Of a stretch of 43,627 nucleotides of DNA, positions 1 through 39,906 are shown piece after piece. Positions within the stretch are counted from its first letter, which is position 1. Each line of letters starts with the position of its first letter. The notes beneath the pieces were generated by a model. The model saw nothing but the letters and a program-made list of their open reading frames with translations, was not told where the DNA came from and ran no database searches. The DNA comes from Candidatus Magasanikiibacteriota bacterium (GTDB lineage: Bacteria; Patescibacteriota; Patescibacteriia; Magasanikbacterales; GWA2-37-8), in the NCBI GenBank assembly GCA_017991415.1, contig JAGOQR010000002.1:161109-204735 (forward strand). Direction: 5' to 3'. The position numbers and the translations under genes are program-made.

Positions 1-404
1 CCCGCGACATCGCGACGATCGAGCGCAGTCGGCTTGTCGCTGCTGTTGACGTGGCCCTTCGGGTAGAAGATGTAGGTCTCGCGAGTAGTACGGCAATTGA
101 TGCCGAGACACCCGTCTCCACACGGGAACGACTCGGCAGCGCGAAGGTCGATCGTCACCTGGAGATGCGCGGGCATCGACTGCCACTGACTACTCGGAGT
201 CTCGGGCAAGCCGGTGTTCTGCGCCATCCAGTTGAAGACGATATGAATCTCGCCTTTGCCTTCAACCACATTAGCGATTTCACCTCGCCGAATGTAGCCG
301 ATATTGTCGGCACTGAACTCCTGGCGGACTTCCATCTGCCCACCAACGAACTGGTGGAAGATGTTTCCGTCGATAGAGCTATGACCTGTAACAAGTCTTG
401 ACAT
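1..404 (-). CDS. GC-rich orphan gene, 3' end outside the window
   Basis: An open frame begins with ATG at 404 on the minus strand (MSRLVTGHSSIDGN) and stays open to the window edge, at least 134 codons, so the stop codon lies outside. I do not recognise the protein. It has no signal peptide or membrane segment; it has alternating hydrophobic stretches (EIHIVFNW, HLQVTIDLR) suggesting beta strands and a Cys cluster (PCGDGCLGINC). Base composition is alien: 40 of 60 bases at 121-180 are G or C against about 35% in neighbouring core genes. No good Shine-Dalgarno site precedes the ATG. A sigma70-like promoter with an extended -10 box and a hairpin at the expected transcript start lie upstream. 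It is one of four similar GC-rich single-gene blocks in the window. The opposite-strand frame at 51-401 was judged a shadow. Confidence 0.6.
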   Translation of the reverse strand, partial: MSRLVTGHSSIDGNIFHQFVGGQMEVRQEFSADNIGYIRRGEIANVVEGKGEIHIVFNWMAQNTGLPETPSSQWQSMPAHLQVTIDLRAAESFPCGDGCLGINCRTTRETYIFYPKGHVNSSDKPTALDRRDVA

Positions 405-434
405 GAGAGCTGGGCTCCGAACCAGTTTGGTTGC

Positions 435-474
435 GTGTTTCTCTACCGCCCCAACGTAGGGCGCGAGAAAACAC
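435..474 (-). other. Hairpin at the expected 5' end of the orphan mRNA
   Basis: GTGTTTCTC (435-443) pairs with GAGAAAACAC (465-474) with one bulged base, and GCCC (448-451) pairs with GGGC (459-462). The transcription start predicted from the promoter at 478-507 falls near 471, so the mRNA would begin in this stem. Confidence 0.5.
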
Positions 475-477
475 CTC

Positions 478-507
478 ATATTAGCATAAAAATACCCGAA
501 TGGTCAA
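478..507 (-). promoter_or_regulatory. Sigma70-like promoter for the gene at 1-404
   Basis: On the minus strand: -35 TTGACC (502-507), 18-nt spacer, -10 TAATAT (478-483) preceded by TGC, an extended -10. The AT-rich host-like composition ends here and the GC-rich block starts just downstream. Confidence 0.55.
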
Positions 508-595
508 GGCTTTTATCTAATTGCACCCCTTATTCTTTTCTACACGTACTACATATATAGGCTGCCACCAGCCTAACGCATAACCATATATTAGT

Positions 596-1327
596 ATGAA
601 AAAAAGAAAATATATTATCTTAACTGCTGTAGTAGTTATTACCCTACTCTCCACTTCTGGAGCTGCTATTGCCTCTGCTATGGGCGACGTGCGAAATGCC
701 AGCTTTTCTTTTCATCCAAAAAATAATCTAAAAGGCAACAAGCCTGGCATTGGTGGTGCTATTGCCGCTATCAATGGGACAACACTGACCATAACAGGTG
801 CAGACGGCACCACATATACCGTCGATGCGGCCAAAGCAAAAATTACTCGTGGCTTTGGACCAAACACCGAAACGCTTGCGCTTACTGACATAAAAGTCGG
901 AGATGCCATTGGTGTAATTGGAACTGTTTCGGGCACAAATGTTACTGCCAAAGTTATTATTGATGGTGTGGGCATGATACGCGGAAAAGAAGCAGGTGCT
1001 CCAGAAAAATTACACACTGTCGGAACAGTGATAAGTGTAAGCCCATATTCTTTTACCGTAGCGGTAAAAAACTTTCATAACAAAAATAAAACTTCAAACG
1101 AAGCTGTAACATATACAATTGATACAACAAGTAACACGACCGTTACCAAAGATGGAGCAAGCGCTTCCTTGGGAGATATTACAAGTGGCCAAATGGTAAT
1201 TGTTACAGGCAGTGTAAATAACGAAGCAAAAACTGTAGCTGCAACCAAAGTAAATATTACAACTGCCCAAGAAAAAGGCACCCGATTTTCTCACCGACCA
1301 CATATGATGGGAGAAAAAAAGAAATAA
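596..1327 (+). CDS. Secreted DUF5666-like protein
   Basis: A 243-residue protein with an N-terminal signal peptide or anchor (basic MKKRK, then a hydrophobic stretch to about residue 27). The rest holds two similar beta-rich units, roughly residues 52-125 and 138-225. Each has the pattern of DUF5666-type OB-like domains: a glycine-containing strand (GAIAAINGTTLTITG; GTVISVSPYSFTV), a Thr-rich strand (TTYTVD; VTYTID), then a block of the form L-x-D-I-x-x-G-x-x-V-x-x-G (LTDIKVGDAIGVIGTV; LGDITSGQMVIVTGSV). The C-terminus is basic and ends in four lysines with a His/Met patch. Function is unknown; related proteins are exported and common in Gram-positives and CPR bacteria. The ATG at 596 gives the signal peptide directly. 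It is a single-gene unit closed by a strong terminator at 1344-1377. Confidence 0.8.
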   Translation: MKKRKYIILTAVVVITLLSTSGAAIASAMGDVRNASFSFHPKNNLKGNKPGIGGAIAAINGTTLTITGADGTTYTVDAAKAKITRGFGPNTETLALTDIKVGDAIGVIGTVSGTNVTAKVIIDGVGMIRGKEAGAPEKLHTVGTVISVSPYSFTVAVKNFHNKNKTSNEAVTYTIDTTSNTTVTKDGASASLGDITSGQMVIVTGSVNNEAKTVAATKVNITTAQEKGTRFSHRPHMMGEKKK

Positions 1328-1343
1328 AAATTAAAAATAGTAT

Positions 1344-1377
1344 AAAAAAACAGCTGGATTAGCCCAGCTGTTTTTTT
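1344..1377. terminator. Intrinsic terminator after the DUF5666-like gene
   Basis: CAGCTGG and CCAGCTG form a 7-bp GC-containing stem, extended by an A-run on the left and a T-run on the right, so it can work on both strands. Confidence 0.85.
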
Positions 1378-1389
1378 ATACATAGCCTC

Positions 1390-1418
1390 TTGTTATTATT
1401 TTTAATGTTGGGTAAAAT
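1390..1418 (+). promoter_or_regulatory. Promoter of the riboswitch transcript
   Basis: -35 TTGTTA (1390-1395), 17-nt spacer, -10 TAAAAT (1413-1418). The predicted start near 1425 lies just before the riboswitch core. Confidence 0.5.
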
Positions 1419-1440
1419 TACGACAGTTCTTTTAACTATT

Positions 1441-1572
1441 CCATACATGTGGAAGTAGGGTTAAATCCCCTCGCTGTGCCGCAACAGTAAAGTCCCGAAC
1501 CTATTCGGGAACAAGCCTGGTCTTCATTTATGGAAAACTATATTCTTAGGTTAAAACTCCCGAGCAGGGGTG
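1441..1572 (+). ncRNA. Cobalamin-type riboswitch
   Basis: The core at 1441-1533 folds as nested stems: CCATA/TATGG (1441-1445 with 1529-1533), GAAG/CTTC (1452-1455 with 1522-1525), GGG/CCC around TTAAAT (1458-1468), CTGT/ACAG enclosing GCCGCA (1474-1487), and TCCCGAA/TTCGGGA (1493-1510). The single-stranded and loop signatures GTTAAATCC, GCCGCAACAGTAA and AAGCCTGG match the P3-P6 junction of the cobalamin riboswitch family (consensus CCGCAACTGT and AAGCC-GG). The end of the B12 box is shorter than usual, so it may be a variant class. A further C/G hairpin at 1559-1569 could supply the kissing loop; I could not confirm that pairing. An intrinsic terminator at 1633-1666 is the likely expression platform and the regulated gene is the lipoprotein at 1690. 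Confidence 0.78.
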
Positions 1573-1580
1573 GATTTGCC

Positions 1581-1629
1581 ATTAGATATCGTATACATGA
1601 TTATATTAGTCGTCTACACGATGTCTAAT
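1581..1629 (+). other. 12-bp stem between riboswitch and terminator
   Basis: ATTAGATATCGT (1581-1592) can pair along its whole length with ACGATGTCTAAT (1618-1629), with one G-U pair in RNA. It ends four bases before the terminator hairpin, so it may belong to the riboswitch's switching region. Confidence 0.45.
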
Positions 1630-1632
1630 CGC

Positions 1633-1666
1633 CAACGCCCGCCTTCTAGCGGGCGTTGTGTTTTTC
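1633..1666 (+). terminator. Intrinsic terminator, likely riboswitch expression platform
   Basis: CAACGCCCGC (1633-1642) and GCGGGCGTTG (1649-1658) form a perfect 10-bp stem with a 6-nt loop, followed by TGTTTTTC. It lies between the riboswitch and the lipoprotein start codon, so it would stop leader transcription when formed. Confidence 0.8.
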
Positions 1667-1689
1667 TACCTTCACGAAAGCTGGCTCAA

Positions 1690-2007
1690 ATGAACCGTAG
1701 AACTTTTTTGGCAACCATGCTCTCTGGCGCAACCGCAGGTACGCTCGCTGGTTGCGGCCTCGTCAACGAACTGCCCACCTTCCTCTCGGTTCTGTCGAAG
1801 GACCATGACGTCGAGACATGCGACCGACAACTAGATGGCGTTCCTACTACCTACGCCCTCAGCGTCGACGGAGTGTCGGAGCAACCCGAGACGAGCCTCT
1901 ATTGGCAGTTCTACGTGGACGGCGTGCCTATCGAAGGACCTATCGACGAAGTCTTCGTGAACGAAGGGCAGGCCGTCTCGGCTCGCCTCACCTCCCAACC
2001 AACATAG
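1690..2007 (+). CDS. Tat-type lipoprotein with transcobalamin-like (DUF4430) domain
   Basis: A 105-residue exported lipoprotein. The N-terminus has a twin-arginine motif (NRRTFLA) and a lipobox (LAGC, Cys at residue 22), predicting Tat export and lipid anchoring. The mature part matches the C-terminal beta domain of transcobalamin and intrinsic factor (DUF4430) in pattern: YALSVDGV, then SLYWQFYVDG, then a final strand block DEVFVNEGQAVSARL. From memory, human transcobalamin has the same order of features, ending FWQLL and DGETIELRL. I infer a role in cobalamin or corrinoid capture at the cell surface, supported by the cobalamin-type riboswitch directly upstream. The ATG at 1690 is chosen over an in-frame GTG at 1570, because that GTG lies in the riboswitch and would bury the signal peptide. 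Composition is GC-rich (36/60 at 1861-1920), unlike the host. No permease gene is adjacent. Confidence 0.72.
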   Translation: MNRRTFLATMLSGATAGTLAGCGLVNELPTFLSVLSKDHDVETCDRQLDGVPTTYALSVDGVSEQPETSLYWQFYVDGVPIEGPIDEVFVNEGQAVSARLTSQPT

Positions 2008-2026
2008 AAAACACAGCCTAGAACAA

Positions 2027-2057
2027 ACATCCGCTCAGAGACGGCCTGAGCGGATGT
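2027..2057 (+). terminator. Hairpin closing the lipoprotein cassette
   Basis: ACATCCGCTCAG and CTGAGCGGATGT form a perfect 12-bp stem around AGACGGC, 20 nt after the stop codon. T-rich sequence follows only after about ten bases, so terminator strength is uncertain. Confidence 0.6.
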
Positions 2058-2118
2058 GACTAATTATTTATTTTTTAATTTTTAAGACCACTCTTTCAAA
2101 AAAATTGAAAAGGATGCA

Positions 2119-2202
2119 TTACTGATTATGCTCTTCAACTACAGTCTTCAGCTGAGGCAGCTCACCAAGCGTATTGCCTAATAATTCAACGAATACCCAA
2201 AA
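2119..2202 (-). pseudogene. Possible 3' remnant of a lost gene
   Basis: On the minus strand a 27-codon open stretch follows an in-frame TAG and ends in TAA at 2119. It reads FWVFVELLGNTLGELPQLK and then TVVEEHNQ, which looks like the helical end of a real protein. It has no start codon, and I cannot name a parent family. It lies between the GC-rich lipoprotein cassette and the acyltransferase gene and may be a leftover of the gene displaced there. It could equally be chance. Confidence 0.25.
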
Positions 2203-2229
2203 CTAGTCAAAACATGTAACAAGTCTTTT

Positions 2230-3129
2230 TTATTTAACTTCCTCTTCTACCATTTCAATATCATCTTCACCTAATTCTATCTCAGGAATTTCTTGATACT
2301 GACCTCTTCGTTCTGGCGGCAACATAGTGCCAATTTTACTAGCAACTGTATTAGCATCTTCCTTTAGACGTTTGTAGACTCTGGAAAACTCCACTCGCTC
2401 TTCATCAGTTACTTGTTCTTTATTACCTCGCTTATACATGACCGTTTCAATAATTGAAACATCCAGCGGCAAGAGCTGTATAGGCTTACCCACATGATAC
2501 GTGCCTTTTCCTTTACCAGCTACCCTAGCTGCTAGCGCCTTTGCCAACTCTATGCCACCTTCCATACTAACTGAGCCGCCTTCATATTCTAATGCAGCAG
2601 GAATAATCATAGCGCCAGATTTATGAGCCAAGTATACGCTACCAATACGAGCTGCCTGCATTTGTTCTTCTTTAGTAAATGGATGAATAGCAATCCAAGG
2701 GGTTTTGCCTTTTTCTACACTTTGGGCTAAGCCAGTAAAATCGTCAGGATCAAATACACCATGTTTTCCTTTCTTGCCTTTTTCATATGAAAGCGGTACA
2801 AAATTTTCTTTTCCTGCGAATTTAAACAGTGCTCGTTGTGGGGCTAGCCCTTCAAACAGCACTGATTCGGCAGTAATTTGCATATCTAACATATCACCCA
2901 AGGCTACTACAGCCGCCGGAGCATCTAGGTTAGAAAAGTGAGATGCAGCCAATACAAACTTTGCATTTGGATTCTCCCTCAACACTTGCCTAATTTGCTC
3001 TTTACCATCTACAGAAAATTCTTTACAAAAAAGCTTAACGGCTTTTTCCATCCCTTTTCTTAATTCTTCTGAGGTTTGTCTTGTTAGTTTTGGCTCGCCT
3101 GGATGACCAGTTTCAAAATGGTGGGGCAT
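2230..3129 (-). CDS. PlsC-like glycerophosphate/phospholipid acyltransferase
   Basis: A 299-residue protein with acyltransferase blocks in order. Block I is SHFSNLD near residue 65, fitting the catalytic H-x4-D motif. A HPFTKEE block near residue 149 sits where FPEGTRS normally lies, and GAMIIPAALEY near residue 172 resembles block IV. The family transfers acyl chains to lysophosphatidate or related acceptors at the membrane. There is no obvious transmembrane segment, so the enzyme would be peripheral. The C-terminal tail is strongly acidic (ELGEDDIEMVEEEVK), which is unusual for PlsC. The gene stands alone between two GC-rich cassettes and is read leftward. Its start MPHHFE is the first in-frame ATG. 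The substrate is not predictable from sequence. Confidence 0.72.
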   Translation of the reverse strand: MPHHFETGHPGEPKLTRQTSEELRKGMEKAVKLFCKEFSVDGKEQIRQVLRENPNAKFVLAASHFSNLDAPAAVVALGDMLDMQITAESVLFEGLAPQRALFKFAGKENFVPLSYEKGKKGKHGVFDPDDFTGLAQSVEKGKTPWIAIHPFTKEEQMQAARIGSVYLAHKSGAMIIPAALEYEGGSVSMEGGIELAKALAARVAGKGKGTYHVGKPIQLLPLDVSIIETVMYKRGNKEQVTDEERVEFSRVYKRLKEDANTVASKIGTMLPPERRGQYQEIPEIELGEDDIEMVEEEVK

Positions 3130-3220
3130 ATATTAATTTAATATTTACATAAAAAGCATATCATTAAAGCCATTCTATTACAATCAAAACTGTGCCTTAT
3201 TTGAAGCGTTATATTAAAAC

Positions 3221-3248
3221 AAAAAATCACCTATTCAGGTGATTTTTT
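3221..3248. terminator. Bidirectional intrinsic terminator
   Basis: AAAAAATCACCT and AGGTGATTTTTT form a perfect 12-bp stem with loop ATTC. It separates the GC-rich lipoprotein block to its right from the acyltransferase gene to its left. Confidence 0.85.
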
Positions 3249-3298
3249 GCTCCTCAATCTCTTCTATAAGATTTAAAATAAAAAAAATAGTTGGATGC

Positions 3299-3324
3299 GA
3301 GGTCGAGACAGCTGTCTCGACCTC
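3299..3324. terminator. Perfect 26-bp palindrome at the 3' end of a cassette
   Basis: GAGGTCGAGACAG is followed directly by its exact reverse complement CTGTCTCGACCTC. It lies 72 nt past the stop codon of the minus-strand lipoprotein gene and marks the point where GC-rich sequence gives way to AT-rich sequence. It could be a hairpin terminator or a recombination or protein-binding palindrome. Confidence 0.55.
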
Positions 3325-3396
3325 AGTCGAATGAGTGCTACCGCAAACAGCATTGTCCGCGGCAGCAACACCGACATGGTTCCGGTCTCGCCCTGA

Positions 3397-3846
3397 TCAG
3401 AGACGCACGTCGAGGGTGATCAGCTTGTACTTGCCGTTGTGATGGAGTGGAATGAGCTCGGAGTAGTCGTCTTCGGGAACGAGATCTTCGCCTACGGCGA
3501 ACACCCGAACACGACCGTGCTGACTGAGCTCGTAGCGCACGAAGATGGCGCCGAAGAGGTACTGACAGCGAGCATCGGCGCTGGGGCAAGTAAGAAGCAC
3601 CTTCTCCTCGTGAGTGAACTCGCTGTAGCGGTACATCACGAGCACCTTGGCAGACGTCGCAACGATATGAGCCACATCGTTAAGGCAGACGTTGTCCACG
3701 CTGACCTCGCCACAGCGCAACACCTTGGGCCGAGTGATCTCGATGTGGAGGTCGAGCTTCCTCGGTGATGAGGGGCTACCACACGCCGTGATGAGCAGGG
3801 CAAGCAGCACGACGAACGACTTCTTCAGAACGGACTCGGTAACCAT
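3397..3846 (-). CDS. GC-rich orphan lipoprotein
   Basis: A 149-residue predicted lipoprotein: basic start, hydrophobic stretch SFVVLLALL and lipobox LITAC with the Cys near residue 22. The mature part is beta-rich (LDLHIEITRPKVLRC, HIVATSAKVLVMYRY, IFVRYELSQ) with four further Cys residues that could pair. I recognise no family. The start at 3846 is preferred over an upstream in-frame TTG at 3858, because GCGAGG sits about five bases before this ATG as a Shine-Dalgarno site. Composition is alien (37 of 60 bases G/C at 3481-3540). An imperfect 21-bp inverted repeat lies upstream (3881-3925) and a perfect palindrome downstream. It belongs with the other GC-rich single-gene blocks. Confidence 0.68.
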   Translation of the reverse strand: MVTESVLKKSFVVLLALLITACGSPSSPRKLDLHIEITRPKVLRCGEVSVDNVCLNDVAHIVATSAKVLVMYRYSEFTHEEKVLLTCPSADARCQYLFGAIFVRYELSQHGRVRVFAVGEDLVPEDDYSELIPLHHNGKYKLITLDVRL

Positions 3847-3880
3847 AGAACCTCGCAATGGGACGGGGGTTGAAAGGACA

Positions 3881-3925
3881 TTGGGTTAAGTCTATTCAAG
3901 AAAATCTTGAATACACTCTACCCAA
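3881..3925. repeat. Imperfect 21-bp inverted repeat before the orphan lipoprotein
   Basis: The sequences at 3881-3901 and 3905-3925 are inverted copies with three mismatches and a 3-nt AAA loop; the 8 bp nearest the loop (ATTCAAGA/TCTTGAAT) are perfect. It marks the 5' boundary of the GC-rich block and would be a strong hairpin in the leader of the minus-strand mRNA. Confidence 0.6.
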
Positions 3926-4163
3926 CGTCTTTTGTTAGAACCATGTCAAATTGTAAAGAACATTACATTCAATTGTTTAATTGAACATAGAAATATCTCA
4001 TAAAAAGAGCATTTTGTCAATAGTAACATAACTTTATTTACATTGAAAATAATTCTACATATTTAAAGCTGATACATAATGGCGCAGAGATAATCAAAAG
4101 CATTGGAAAACTTTTTTAAAATTTAAAATGCCTTAATGTATACATAAGCCATGTAAAGTATAC
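3926..4163. other. Gene-free AT-rich spacer
   Basis: No gene, tRNA or strong terminator is visible. There is a minor inverted repeat TTCAATT/AATTGAA near 3967-3984 and a TTGACA on the minus strand near 3945-3950 without a convincing -10 box. Confidence 0.5.
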
Positions 4164-4192
4164 TTGACATAGTATTATACCTGTTTTATACT
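4164..4192 (+). promoter_or_regulatory. Near-consensus sigma70 promoter of the thiol-redox operon
   Basis: -35 TTGACA (4164-4169), 17-nt spacer, -10 TATACT (4187-4192). The predicted start near 4199 gives a leader of about 100 nt that contains the two-hairpin element. Confidence 0.8.
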
Positions 4193-4206: not shown

Positions 4207-4298
4207 TATATACCGTAGCGATATAAGCTACCACATATATTCTCATTCATTCAGAAATAATTAAAAACATTTAATTATTTCTCTCATTCATTTCGAAT
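4207..4298 (+). ncRNA. Two-hairpin leader element, copy A
   Basis: Stem 1 uses GTAGC/GCTAC flanked by TATAT/ATATA (4207-4239). Stem 2 is a perfect 13-bp hairpin AGAAATAATTAAA (4253-4265) with TTTAATTATTTCT (4270-4282), loop AACA. The segment CATATATTCTCATTC, stem 2, then a CTC-rich run reaches the start codon at 4299. The same order, with near-identical sequence, precedes rpsA at 39328-39409. No Shine-Dalgarno site is present, so the element probably governs translation initiation. Confidence 0.7.
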
Positions 4299-4898
4299 AT
4301 GAAAAACAAAGTAGTTATCGGCCTCGTCGTTATTTTGGCAGTAGCAGCATCTGGATATTTAATAAATCAACGCAGCCATGATAAAAAAATAATTGAAGAA
4401 AAAAATAATACAGAAGCAATGATGGAAAAAGAAAAGATGGATAGCAAAGAAAATTCCCCTATGGAAAATAAAACAGAAGATACTGCCGAAATGACAAAAG
4501 AAAACAGTATGACAAAACCAGACGAGTCCGCAATGATGGACAAAAGCGACGCTCCAGATAAAGAAAAAATGATGGCTCAAGTAAGCCCTGGCACATACAA
4601 AGATTACTCCCCCGCTACCTTGGCCGAAGCTACAAAAAATGGCAGCAAAGTTGTACTATTCTTTTGGGCTGCCTGGTGTCCAGATTGCAAAGCTGCGAAC
4701 ATTGATTTTGTAACTCATGCAGATCAAATACCTGCAGGAGTCACTGTTCTCAAAACAAACTACGATACGGAAAAATCTCTTAAAACAAAATATGGCATTA
4801 CCTACCAACATACTTTTGTACAAATAGATGCCAACGGCAATCAAATTACAAAATGGAATGGCGGCGGAATAAACAACCTAGTAACAAATCTTAAATAA
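4299..4898 (+). CDS. Membrane-anchored thioredoxin-like protein
   Basis: A 199-residue protein with an N-terminal anchor (residues 5-22), a long charged linker (about 25-93) very rich in Met, Glu and Lys, and a thioredoxin fold with the active site WCPDC (Cys127, Cys130). The N-in orientation of the anchor places the redox domain outside the membrane, where it could reduce or isomerise disulfides in exported proteins. It is followed 17 nt later by the DipZ-like gene, whose CcdA domain would pass electrons to it. The Met-rich linker (AMMEKEKM, SAMMDKSD, EKMMAQ) is unusual and might bind copper or act as an oxidant sink; that is speculation. The start codon follows the structured leader directly. 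Confidence 0.82.
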   Translation: MKNKVVIGLVVILAVAASGYLINQRSHDKKIIEEKNNTEAMMEKEKMDSKENSPMENKTEDTAEMTKENSMTKPDESAMMDKSDAPDKEKMMAQVSPGTYKDYSPATLAEATKNGSKVVLFFWAAWCPDCKAANIDFVTHADQIPAGVTVLKTNYDTEKSLKTKYGITYQHTFVQIDANGNQITKWNGGGINNLVTNLK

Positions 4899-4915: not shown

Positions 4916-6577
4916 ATGCTACAAATTATTTTTTCTTTTTTAGCAGGAATACTTACCATTGGCGCACCCTGCATCTTGCCAATGCTCCCTATTATTTTGG
5001 GAGTATCGGTTGGCCATACCAGTAAAACCAGACCGCTATTTATCACGTTAGGTTTTATCACGTCCTTTTCTTTGGCTGGTCTTACCTTGTCATACATCGT
5101 GCAGAGCTTCATGATTCCACCCGATTTTCTACGCACTGTGGCGGTAGTTGGTTTGGGAATTTTTGGCATACTAATGTTATTTCCAAAAATTTTTGAATTG
5201 TTGGCTCAACGATTATCTGGGGTTTTCACACAAGCCCAGCAAATTGGACAAAAAGCAGGTAACAAAAACATTGGCGGTTTTGTACTTGGCATAATTCTTG
5301 GACTTATTTGGACTCCGTGCGCCGGACCGATACTTGGCAGCATCCTTACTCTTATTGCAACCCAAGCAGCTGGCCAGGCTGTACCGCTCCTTCTTGCATA
5401 TTCAGCAGGAGCAGGCATACCTATGCTACTCATATCATATGGCGGCCAAACTATTACCACTAAGGTTCGCGTATTAGCCAACTATACAAATACCATACAA
5501 AAAATATTCGGTGGCGTAATTCTCCTCCTTGCAATCGCCATGTATTTTCAATACGATTTAAAAATCCAAGCTAAAATTTTGGACTACTATAGCTTTCCAA
5601 CTCTCGAAGAAAAACTTTTAAAACCAAAACTAAATAACCAGTCAAAATTAGATGCTGTAACAAACAAAGCAACAGCATATAACAGCTTACCCAATTATGG
5701 CAGTGCCCCAGATTTTAAAAATATTGCTGCCTGGGTAAACACCGACAAACCACTCACCATGGATAATTTAAAAGACAAAGTTGTGTTAATAGATTTTTGG
5801 ACGTACTCTTGTATTAATTGTATCCGTACACTACCATATATCACTTCATGGTACGAAAAATATAAAGACCAGGGTTTTGTGGTTATCGGTGTTCACACAC
5901 CCGAATTTGAATTTGAAAAAGTATTAGACAATGTAAAAACAGCCACCAAAAGATACAGCATCAATTATCCGGTAGCACTCGATAACAACTTTGGCACTTG
6001 GAACAACTATAACAATCATTATTGGCCAGCCCACTACCTTATAGACAAAGCGGGTAATATTCGCTACTATCATTTTGGCGAAGGCAAGTACGAAGAAACA
6101 GAAGCAGCGATTGCTCAGCTACTAGGCGCAGATGGCCCGACAACTACCAAGCAAGCGGATGAAGACAATAAAAAAATTGGCACCCCAGAAATTTACTTTG
6201 GCACAGACCGATTAGAATACCTATCATCTGCACAATCCCCTTCGCAATCTGGCACAGGCTTTAAACTCCCTACCACACTTGAAAAAAACCATTTTGCTCT
6301 GCAAGGTAACTGGCAATTCTCTTCCGACCACATTACGTTATTGCAAAATAATGGTACTATAAAAATGAATTTCTTTGCAGGTAAAATTCATATGGTAACC
6401 AAAGCAAACAAACCAACTTCTGTTCAAATTACGGTAGATGGCCACAAACAAAATCCTGTTCTCATTTCATCTTCTGATCTATATACCTTATTTGATTCGG
6501 AAGATTATGCACAGCACGAAATTACTATCGAAATTCCCGAAGCAGGATTGGAAGTTTATACATTTACATTCGGATAA
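4916..6577 (+). CDS. dipZ: DipZ-like thiol-disulfide transporter (CcdA-TlpA fusion)
   Basis: A 553-residue fusion. Residues 1-215 are a six-helix CcdA/DsbD membrane domain with its two reactive cysteines in APC (Cys19) and TPC (Cys135). Residues 260-405 are a TlpA/thioredoxin domain with WTYSCINC (Cys299, Cys302) and the GVHTPEFEFE segment typical of DipZ. Residues 410-553 form a beta-rich C-terminal domain found in DipZ proteins, related to carbohydrate-binding modules. The membrane part moves electrons from cytoplasmic thioredoxin to extracytoplasmic targets. With the thioredoxin gene upstream it forms a complete reductive pathway. The family is best known from mycobacteria, so it is of note in a reduced CPR-type genome. 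It is of full length and has no frameshift. Confidence 0.88.
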   Translation: MLQIIFSFLAGILTIGAPCILPMLPIILGVSVGHTSKTRPLFITLGFITSFSLAGLTLSYIVQSFMIPPDFLRTVAVVGLGIFGILMLFPKIFELLAQRLSGVFTQAQQIGQKAGNKNIGGFVLGIILGLIWTPCAGPILGSILTLIATQAAGQAVPLLLAYSAGAGIPMLLISYGGQTITTKVRVLANYTNTIQKIFGGVILLLAIAMYFQYDLKIQAKILDYYSFPTLEEKLLKPKLNNQSKLDAVTNKATAYNSLPNYGSAPDFKNIAAWVNTDKPLTMDNLKDKVVLIDFWTYSCINCIRTLPYITSWYEKYKDQGFVVIGVHTPEFEFEKVLDNVKTATKRYSINYPVALDNNFGTWNNYNNHYWPAHYLIDKAGNIRYYHFGEGKYEETEAAIAQLLGADGPTTTKQADEDNKKIGTPEIYFGTDRLEYLSSAQSPSQSGTGFKLPTTLEKNHFALQGNWQFSSDHITLLQNNGTIKMNFFAGKIHMVTKANKPTSVQITVDGHKQNPVLISSSDLYTLFDSEDYAQHEITIEIPEAGLEVYTFTFG

Positions 6578-38169: not shown

Positions 38170-39327
38170 TTATTTGGCTTCTTTTTCTTCCTTTTTCTTT
38201 TCTTTCTTTACCTCTTTTTCATCTTTTTCTTCCTTTTTTTCTTCAGTCTTTTTTACCTTACCTTTTACTCCAAATAATCGGAGACCAAGGCGGTGTTCTG
38301 GTGGTTCCAAAGACACAATTTCAAAATCCGTACTCTGGCCAATCTTGAACTTCTCGTTTAGATTGCTAATGCCTTCGTCAGCTAACTCGGAAATATGCGC
38401 TAAGCCGTGAATATCTTTGTCGAGCGCTACCATAAGACCAAATGGCTCGATCTTCAAAATCTTACCCTCTACTTTGTCTCCAACTTTATATTTATCTTTT
38501 ACAGACTTCCAAGGATCGTCTACTAAACGTTTGATAGAGAGGTAAATCTTGGATCTGTCTAATTGGATAATCTGTGCTTTTACTTTGTCACCAACTTTTA
38601 AGATATCTTTTGGATGATCAATACGCTGCCAAGCAATTTCGGAAATATGAACGAGACCTTCTAAATCTTGGCCAAATTTTACAAAGGCGCCAAAAGAAGT
38701 AAGGGCACTAATTTCACCTTCTACGGTATCACCTACTTTGTAAGATTCAAGCACAGCCTTTTGTGTATCTTCCCAAACTGCTTTTTCGGACACAATTAAT
38801 TTTTCTTCTTTTTCATTTACATCAATTACTTTTACTTCTAATTCTTTATTCATTAACTCTCGCAACTTTTCTAAGATACGATTTTTATCGCCGCCCATTA
38901 CTCGCGGGTAATGATCTGGGTTAAGTTGAGATACTGGCATAAAACCACCAAGGCCTTCTACCTGCATCATCAGACCACCTTTGTTAGCAGCAAGAACTTT
39001 TGCTTTGATAGTAATATTGTCTTGCATCCATTTCTTAACATTGTTCCAAGCGCGCTGGTAACCAGCAATACGGAATGACAATTCCATTTCACCATTTTCA
39101 TTTTCTAAATCAAGAACAGTAGCTTCTACTTCGTTACCAACTTTTAGATCAGTATATTCTTTTGACTCAGCAAATAATTCTCGGCCACGAACTACACCAA
39201 CAGTTAAACCTTCAATGTCTACGTGCACTTCACCTTTATCGATTGAGATAATTTTACACTTAACCACATCCCCTTCTTTTGGGATGGTAAGCGGATGAGA
39301 CTGCAGCAATGTTTTAAAATCTTCCAT
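38170..39327 (-). CDS. rpsA: 30S ribosomal protein S1
   Basis: A 385-residue S1 with four S1 RNA-binding repeats at about 17-88, 103-170, 188-260 and 272-345. Repeats 3 and 4 are the best conserved (GAFVKFGQDLEGLVHISEI, GLMVALDKDIHGLAHISEL). The last 40 residues are Lys/Glu repeats. S1 helps the 30S subunit bind structured or SD-poor mRNAs, a likely need here since Shine-Dalgarno sites are scarce. The first two repeats are less canonical. The gene has a consensus promoter and a 170-nt structured leader whose last 80 nt recur before the thiol-redox operon. Confidence 0.95.
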   Translation of the reverse strand: MEDFKTLLQSHPLTIPKEGDVVKCKIISIDKGEVHVDIEGLTVGVVRGRELFAESKEYTDLKVGNEVEATVLDLENENGEMELSFRIAGYQRAWNNVKKWMQDNITIKAKVLAANKGGLMMQVEGLGGFMPVSQLNPDHYPRVMGGDKNRILEKLRELMNKELEVKVIDVNEKEEKLIVSEKAVWEDTQKAVLESYKVGDTVEGEISALTSFGAFVKFGQDLEGLVHISEIAWQRIDHPKDILKVGDKVKAQIIQLDRSKIYLSIKRLVDDPWKSVKDKYKVGDKVEGKILKIEPFGLMVALDKDIHGLAHISELADEGISNLNEKFKIGQSTDFEIVSLEPPEHRLGLRLFGVKGKVKKTEEKKEEKDEKEVKKEKKKEEKEAK

Positions 39328-39409
39328 ATACGAGATGAGCGAGAGAAATAATCAAATGTTTTGATTATTTCCGAGCGAATGAGTATATATGAGCTTTAGC
39401 CCATATATA
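39328..39409 (-). ncRNA. Two-hairpin leader element, copy B (rpsA)
   Basis: On the minus strand stem 1 is TATATATGGGCT with AGCTCATATATA (39384-39409, one mismatch). Stem 2 is a perfect 12-bp hairpin GAAATAATCAAA / TTTGATTATTTC (arms 39345-39356 and 39360-39371). The linker ACTCATTCGCTCG and the run CTCTCGCTCATCTCGTAT lead to the rpsA ATG. It aligns over its length with 4207-4298; the T-A pair in stem 2 of copy A is a C-G pair here, which preserves pairing. Confidence 0.72.
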
Positions 39410-39501: not shown

Positions 39502-39530
39502 ATTATACTCTATAACCAACAAATTGTCAA
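39502..39530 (-). promoter_or_regulatory. Consensus sigma70 promoter of rpsA
   Basis: On the minus strand: TTGACA (39525-39530), exactly 17 nt, TATAAT (39502-39507). Both boxes match consensus. The start near 39495 gives a leader of about 168 nt. Confidence 0.88.
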
Positions 39531-39585: not shown

Positions 39586-39867
39586 CTAGTACAACCACCC
39601 TTCCTCACTCGGCCACGTGAACCCGAAGCCCGGCTGACAGTTGACCAGGCACTCAGCCAGGAACCGATTGAGGAGCGCCTGTGCGTCGACCTGCTCTTGC
39701 CCGCGACACGAGGACACCTTCCCCTGCAAGAACATGGAGACCCTGTGGTCATTGTCCGTGGAGTTGCTCAAAGCCTGGTGAAGAGATGCTCCTCCTCGGC
39801 ATATGGGTTCATCAGGGAACAGCTTCTTGAGATCTGCCACAAGAGCAGCAGAAAGCGGCATCCGCAT
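39586..39867 (-). CDS. GC-rich orphan gene between rpsA and uvrC
   Basis: A 93-residue soluble protein without recognised family (start MRMPLSAALVADLKKLFPDE; middle GGASLHQALSNSTDNDHR; end GFGFTWPSEEGWLY). It looks like a small alpha-helical domain with four Cys. The ATG at 39867 is chosen because AAGGAG lies six bases upstream, the best Shine-Dalgarno site in the window; an in-frame TTG at 39900 is less likely. Composition is alien (38 of 60 bases G/C at 39661-39720). It has its own promoter at 39986-40014, two leader hairpins, and a GC-rich hairpin after the stop, so it is a self-contained unit. Confidence 0.65.
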   Translation of the reverse strand: MRMPLSAALVADLKKLFPDEPICRGGASLHQALSNSTDNDHRVSMFLQGKVSSCRGQEQVDAQALLNRFLAECLVNCQPGFGFTWPSEEGWLY

Positions 39868-39906
39868 AAACAGCTCCTTGCGCACAAGCGCAGTTACCAA
39901 AATGGG

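Follow-up and report, generated by a model that had tools for sequence, protein, structure and literature searches.

REP sequences, which occur with RAYT (Y1) transposases, are hairpin repeats with conserved flanks whose pairing is kept as their sequence varies. Integron attC sites carry the R boxes RYYYAAC and GTTRRRY and lie 3′ of cassette ORFs, and the autogenous leader of E. coli rpsA is a structured, Shine-Dalgarno (SD)-poor RNA upstream of that gene. In marine Beggiatoaceae, TAACTGA direct repeats are mostly in the forward orientation, their largest class ends 1 nt before the start codon, the genes after them mostly lack SD sites, and a translational role has been suggested (PMC4679880). 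BOX, RUP and SPRITE of Streptococcus pneumoniae are short, modular, structured multi-copy repeats that are transcribable and can join leader RNA (PMC3049150), and Correia/NEMIS and other bacterial MITEs are small elements with inverted ends that often lie directly upstream of genes and alter their expression (PMC10969869).

The element described here occurs as two copies (A and B) in the window, that is, the whole 43,627-nt stretch of Candidatus Magasanikiibacteriota DNA that was analysed. Like the TAACTGA repeats it is dispersed and start-adjacent, but those are simple 7-nt tandem units without a comparable fold (PMC4679880), whereas the present element has a 72-nt core with the helices P1, P2 and P0 described below and includes the start codon. 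BOX, RUP and SPRITE are reported to be over-represented between convergent genes (PMC3049150), whereas this family lies flush with gene starts and in sense; Correia elements carry promoters and are cut by RNase III (PMC10969869), whereas the promoters of the window copies lie outside the element, whose end is the AUG. As to the features that define a MITE, terminal inverted repeats are represented by the P1 arms, 7 bp that covary and are short for a MITE, and filled and empty sites were seen, with flanks too diverged to define a target-site duplication. The likeness to REP/RAYT systems extends to hairpins, conserved flanks and pairing; the difference is that Y1_Tnp (PF01797) was not found in the genome that holds the window (G000) or in G001 and G015. 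A RAYT/IS200 origin was rejected on this ground. Searching with PF01797 yielded no parent transposase, and the domain occurred in 5 of the 22 family genomes sampled (a set that omits G002), whatever their element copy number. An attC identity was also rejected, as the element ends in TATANNC/GNNTATR and is located 5′ of ORFs. An autogenous leader of a ribosomal protein gene occurs only in the operon of the protein that binds it, whereas the present element serves many unrelated genes. Literature searches for start-codon repeats, or for SD usage, in Magasanikbacteria and Patescibacteria gave no relevant paper, and a repeat family with the start codon as its edge, covarying helices and sense orientation appears to be undescribed in the literature searched. 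Many bacteria carry dispersed palindromic repeats; the start-codon edge over dozens of housekeeping genes sets this family apart, and it provides a direct handle both on translation start without SD pairing in Patescibacteria and on how a repeat turns into a regulatory leader.

A preliminary description had reported two leaders that align up to the ATG, each with two hairpins, one before a thiol-redox operon and the other before rpsA. Both leaders are present, and both hairpins are real (stem 1 is P0 and stem 2 is P2 in the following), while a competing helix that contains the AUG, P1, had been missed. The parts of the two copies and the adjoining genes and predicted promoters are as follows.

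4164-4192, forward strand: predicted promoter of sigma-70 type 5′ of copy A, TTGACA-17-TATACT, agreeing with the consensus at 11 of 12 positions (consensus-only scan)
4207-4301, forward strand: copy A, whole
4207-4239, forward strand: hairpin P0 of copy A (stem 1), pairs 4207-4211/4235-4239 and 4215-4219/4227-4231, from the minimum free energy fold and the family covariation of P0
4236-4242, forward strand: 5′ strand of P1 of copy A, TATATTC, overlapping the 3′ strand of P0 and pairing with 4295-4301
4243-4253, forward strand: conserved internal loop of copy A, 5′ side, TCATTCATTCA
4254-4281, forward strand: hairpin P2 of copy A (stem 2), 12 bp
4282-4294, forward strand: conserved internal loop of copy A, 3′ side, TCTCATTCATTTC
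4295-4301, forward strand: 3′ strand of P1 of copy A, GAATATG, whose last three letters are the start codon (ATG, 4299-4301)
4299-4898, forward strand: gene begun by copy A, thioredoxin-like protein of 199 aa (Pfam)
4916-6577, forward strand: DsbD/thioredoxin fusion after the copy A gene, with DsbD-type membrane, thioredoxin-like and Thioredoxin_10 domains (Pfam)
39502-39530, reverse strand: promoter TTGACA-17-TATAAT upstream of copy B (12 of 12 matches)
39407-39325, reverse strand: copy B, whole
39386-39407, reverse strand: hairpin P0 of copy B, TATATGGGC-TAAA-GCTCATATA
39383-39389, reverse strand: 5′ strand of P1 of copy B, TATATAC, overlapping the 3′ strand of P0
39372-39382, reverse strand: conserved internal loop of copy B, 5′ side
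39345-39371, reverse strand: hairpin P2 of copy B, GAAATAATCAAA-ACA-TTTGATTATTTC
39332-39344, reverse strand: conserved internal loop of copy B, 3′ side, TCTCGCTCATCTC
39325-39331, reverse strand: 3′ strand of P1 of copy B, GTATATG, whose last three letters are the rpsA start codon (39327-39325)
38170-39327, reverse strand: rpsA, begun by copy B, with four S1 domains (Pfam)

The promoter 5′ of copy A would place this copy within the 5′ UTR, and the promoter-like sites 5′ of both copies were taken as a sign that both are probably transcribed. In both leaders P2 pairs perfectly over 12 bp, with the compensatory change from T-A to C-G that had been noted earlier. When folded against 200 dinucleotide shuffles, both leaders beat all of them (z −3.95 for copy A and −3.64 for copy B), and at 37 °C the folded leaders were predicted to leave the AUG unpaired for only some 30% of the time. 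A transcription terminator was rejected, as no T run follows P2. The preliminary view that no named family fits agrees with Rfam release 15, in which the only window matches above the gathering cut-off were tRNAs and the best sub-threshold matches of five copies were at chance level (E 0.21 and 0.49).

The two leaders are members of a multi-copy family of structured repeats, with about a dozen copies in their own genome and hundreds across relatives, rather than the single pair reported earlier. A loose pattern search of the own genome gave a 3-mismatch list about equal to that of a reversed-pattern control, only its best few matches being real, and covariance models were used instead: a model from six copies built after that search, and a later one to which P1 was added. 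In the window a covariance model matched copies A and B with E values of 2e-17 and 4e-17, and the next match (E 0.16) was P2's own reverse strand, leaving exactly two strong copies. The covariance-model search of relatives that the preliminary description had proposed recovered further copies with paired changes in P0, P1 and P2. At E ≤ 1 the six-copy model found 85 copies in G001 and 54 in G002, both congeners of the own genome, which has about 12. With the P1-containing model, 22 of the 25 family-level genomes (Candidatus Magasanikbacteria) gave matches, as did 37 of 86 genomes of the order, 36 of 286 of a class sample and 14 of 380 of a phylum sample, a patchy distribution at the phylum level. 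Copy number ranges from about 12 to more than 50 among members of a single genus and, in the other genomes of the family, from 0 to 26. All these counts are minimum values, since scoring was confined to the top candidates of each genome. The repeat is about 90 nt long, reaching about 125 nt where P2 is long; variant copies have a longer core of about 106 nt and a branched P2, and tandem arrays occur in which adjacent units have one TATA in common. The consensus matched nothing in a viral contig collection, and a viral origin was rejected.

Alignment of 143 copies revealed a core consisting of P1 (7 bp, TATANNC/GNNTATR), a conserved asymmetric internal loop (5′ side CTCATTCGYTCG, 3′ side CTCACTCATTTCG) and P2, whose sequence is free to vary provided that pairing holds, while its shape is conserved. 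In the 143 copies, 93.5% of P1 and P2 cells were paired versus 74.5% after shuffling, and the covariation score was 0.445 versus 0.136; sliding the pairing partners destroyed the signal. Since P1 was outside the model that built this alignment, its covariation is independent of the alignment. The same test gave 0.612 versus 0.165 for 80 distinct copies of other genera and orders and 0.558 versus 0.159 for 45 distant copies, both in alignments fitted to the model that holds P1. Hairpin P0 lies upstream of the core, and its stability exceeds that obtained with permuted upstream sequence. It covaries with the core as well: the core letter C was found with TATG 59 times and with TATC 12 times, and the core letter G with TATC 16 times and with TATG 3 times. 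Because the 3′ strand of P0 and P1 have ATATA in common, the two helices are mutually exclusive for those bases. Calculated energies of the P0 and P1 states were −18.7 and −18.1 for copy A (near-equal) and −22.4 and −17.4 for copy B (P0 favoured). In having two exclusive folds, one of which closes the start region, the element resembles a translational riboswitch or thermometer, the switching itself being predicted here.

The codon at the 3′ end of P1 is ATG in 103 of the 143 copies and ATA in 29, and an ORF begins exactly at this end in 101 (71%); the figures are 9 of 10 for the own genome and 35 of 45 for copies of the other family genera. As a control, the noncoding DNA of the own genome has 1631 TATR sites, of which 95 (5.8%) are ORF starts. 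For copies of the genus, the next gene is in sense in 114 of 121. The mreB genes of G001, G002 and G015 have a shifted copy (L100:1347-1418, L122:4201-4273 and L258:1539-1611), in which the internal loop contains the AUG and codons 2-4 are the partner strand of P1 (ATGTTTATC).

The absence of an SD site from both leaders, reported earlier, is correct and not peculiar to them: upstream of 301 genes with an ATG start in the own genome (stretches L188-L207 and the window), SD-like 4-mers were at the shuffled level (20 versus 27, and 20 versus 16 with another shuffle), and the only strong start signal was a T at −1, present in 87% of the genes. The 16S tail of this genome still has CCTCC despite the unused SD sites; Bacteroidetes, too, are known to initiate without SD sites while their anti-SD is intact (PMC6847099). 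T at −1 was found in 81-86% of the genes of G001, G002 and G015, with no clear SD signal, and in 29% of only 24 genes of G449, where the copies are not at starts. The element end UAUR matches this UAUG start context. Leaderless initiation was rejected, a −10 box at fixed distance before the ATG not being found.

Besides the window pair, the element begins rpmJ, ssb, gap, adk, murG, dciA and a 40-aa ORF in the own genome. In the relatives it begins well over 100 different genes of mixed housekeeping functions, including rplD, rplE, rplI, rplK, rplN, rplQ, rplS, rplX, tyrS, nusG, trmD, rny, dnaN and eno. A regulon of ribosomal proteins only was rejected, the downstream genes being too varied. 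The operon neighbours rplN and rplX of G004 (L148) each have their own start-codon copy. The 40-aa ORF (L008:1554-1676, at own-genome copy C4) encodes a very basic product, MAKRPTGLKKRTKSRHSPK..., with no match in Pfam or NCBIfam.

For about 20 genes, the orthologue in a congener has its start at the same ATG but no element there. At rplD, the site is filled in G002 (...aaaaaata[ctatatagttaaaACATATAATC...CATATCGATT]ATG) and empty in G001 (...aaaaaatattATG). Such element-free orthologous starts indicate that copies are gained or lost at pre-existing starts, as expected of a mobile repeat, and, since these orthologues start normally, that the element is dispensable at most genes, which counts against a leader function. 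Six of the nine start copies of the own genome (rpsA, gap, ssb, adk, murG and dciA) are retained at the orthologous start of a congener, where independent placement would give an estimated 0.6 or so shared starts at about 1,100 genes per genome. In these retained pairs the loops are mostly similar and P2 and the flanks differ, and rplK, rplX, rplS and tyrS recur as carriers across genera. Orthologous sites with and without the element offer natural comparisons.

With somewhat more confidence than doubt, we read the leaders as members of a family of structured, mobile-like repeats, dispersed and about 90 nt long, which in Magasanikbacteria are held at start codons and act there as cis leaders. 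The pairing is shown by covariation, from which, with the placement of the copies, we infer translational control of the downstream genes; a structured leader with selected pairing and a role in translation initiation, as the preliminary description had it, is the best reading, with a reach well beyond two genes. Several findings count against an RNA leader. Pairing in P2 is nearly pure Watson-Crick, with 20 G-U against 37 A-C among 1606 P2 cells, although selection on the RNA strand only should favour G-U; part of the pairing may thus be maintained on the DNA. In copies without a terminal ATG, P1 is paired just as well, so P1 is part of the element and did not originate as an AUG-hiding helix, and position 6 remains T, not C, opposite the G of the AUG. 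The same repeats might, though we consider it the less likely case, be selfish REP- or MITE-like DNA whose hairpins serve its own copying through cruciform or single-strand recognition, inserting at TAT(A/G) and tolerated at UAUG, where initiation would go on undisturbed, without any regulatory effect. The swings in copy number, the tandem arrays, the strand-symmetric pairing with G-U nearly absent, the element-free orthologous sites and the unoriented intergenic relatives in other classes all fit selfish DNA. It does not explain why 71% of the copies, nearly all in sense, are at starts when so few insertable TATR sites are, or why copies are kept at orthologous starts while their flanks diverge, and the Y1 transposase of REP systems is missing from the three genomes named above. 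The scarcity of G-U, the P1 of non-ATG copies and the unoriented distant relatives led us to read the element as a mobile-like repeat that is kept here as a start-codon leader.

As to how a start-codon leader of this kind might work, formation of P0 would leave the UAUG start free for initiation without an SD site, whereas P1 formed on P2 and the internal loop would close the AUG. Repression would follow when a protein or ligand that recognises the CTCATTCG-type loop shifts the balance to P1; initiating ribosomes would shift it to P0. From gene to gene, the element would be copied by some process and survive mainly at start codons. We tentatively extend this to a transposon-like family of RNA switches, bistable between P0 and P1 with the AUG as the switching strand, in which a common trans factor reading the loop might govern a genome-wide translational regulon; if so, the spread of a repeat would have created such a regulon in bacteria whose translation starts at UAUG without SD pairing. 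The short, AU-rich, AUG-containing P1 and the mostly paired AUG at 37 °C could also be those of an RNA thermometer, closed when cold and melting on warming without ligand or protein, but we regard this as improbable, since it would leave both the strongly conserved internal-loop sequence and the covarying P0 unexplained.

The specific proposal of the preliminary description was a leader of the thiol-redox operon and rpsA, perhaps S1-binding, that couples the former to the S1 level; for rpsA this would mean autoregulation. A pyrimidine-rich loop, the lack of an SD site and the single copy preceding rpsA in both the own genome and G002 speak for it, but the same element starts well over 100 unrelated genes, and the mixture of downstream genes does not support a coupling of S1 and redox functions. 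Among the relatives, rpsA of G001 has no sense copy at its start, and rpsA is not among the recurrent carrier genes of other genera. We give this proposal very little credence, while a general factor, S1 included, may read the loop. That only two copies are seen in the window might suggest that they resemble each other by chance or arose when one leader was simply duplicated; a family of hundreds of covarying copies refutes this, leaving it next to no probability.

Just upstream of the G001 rpsA, an antisense copy of 106 nt (L087:1822-1927) was found in place of a sense copy. In other classes of Patescibacteria (L277-L299 of G449, G577 and G410; L169-L187), the P0-P1-loop-P2 architecture was observed in intergenic repeats that are unoriented and off starts, for example ATAAAGGGCTTCGCCCTTTGTTTGCTCGTTCGCTCG...CTCACTCACTTCGCAAATAAA. 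Within the window, positions 1-400, 1570-2007, 3338-3858 and 39586-39900, and likewise L008:2160-2760, seem GC-richer than the otherwise AT-rich genome and contain small odd ORFs; in a 2-kb profile, GC content was 0.43-0.47 over window positions 1-4000.
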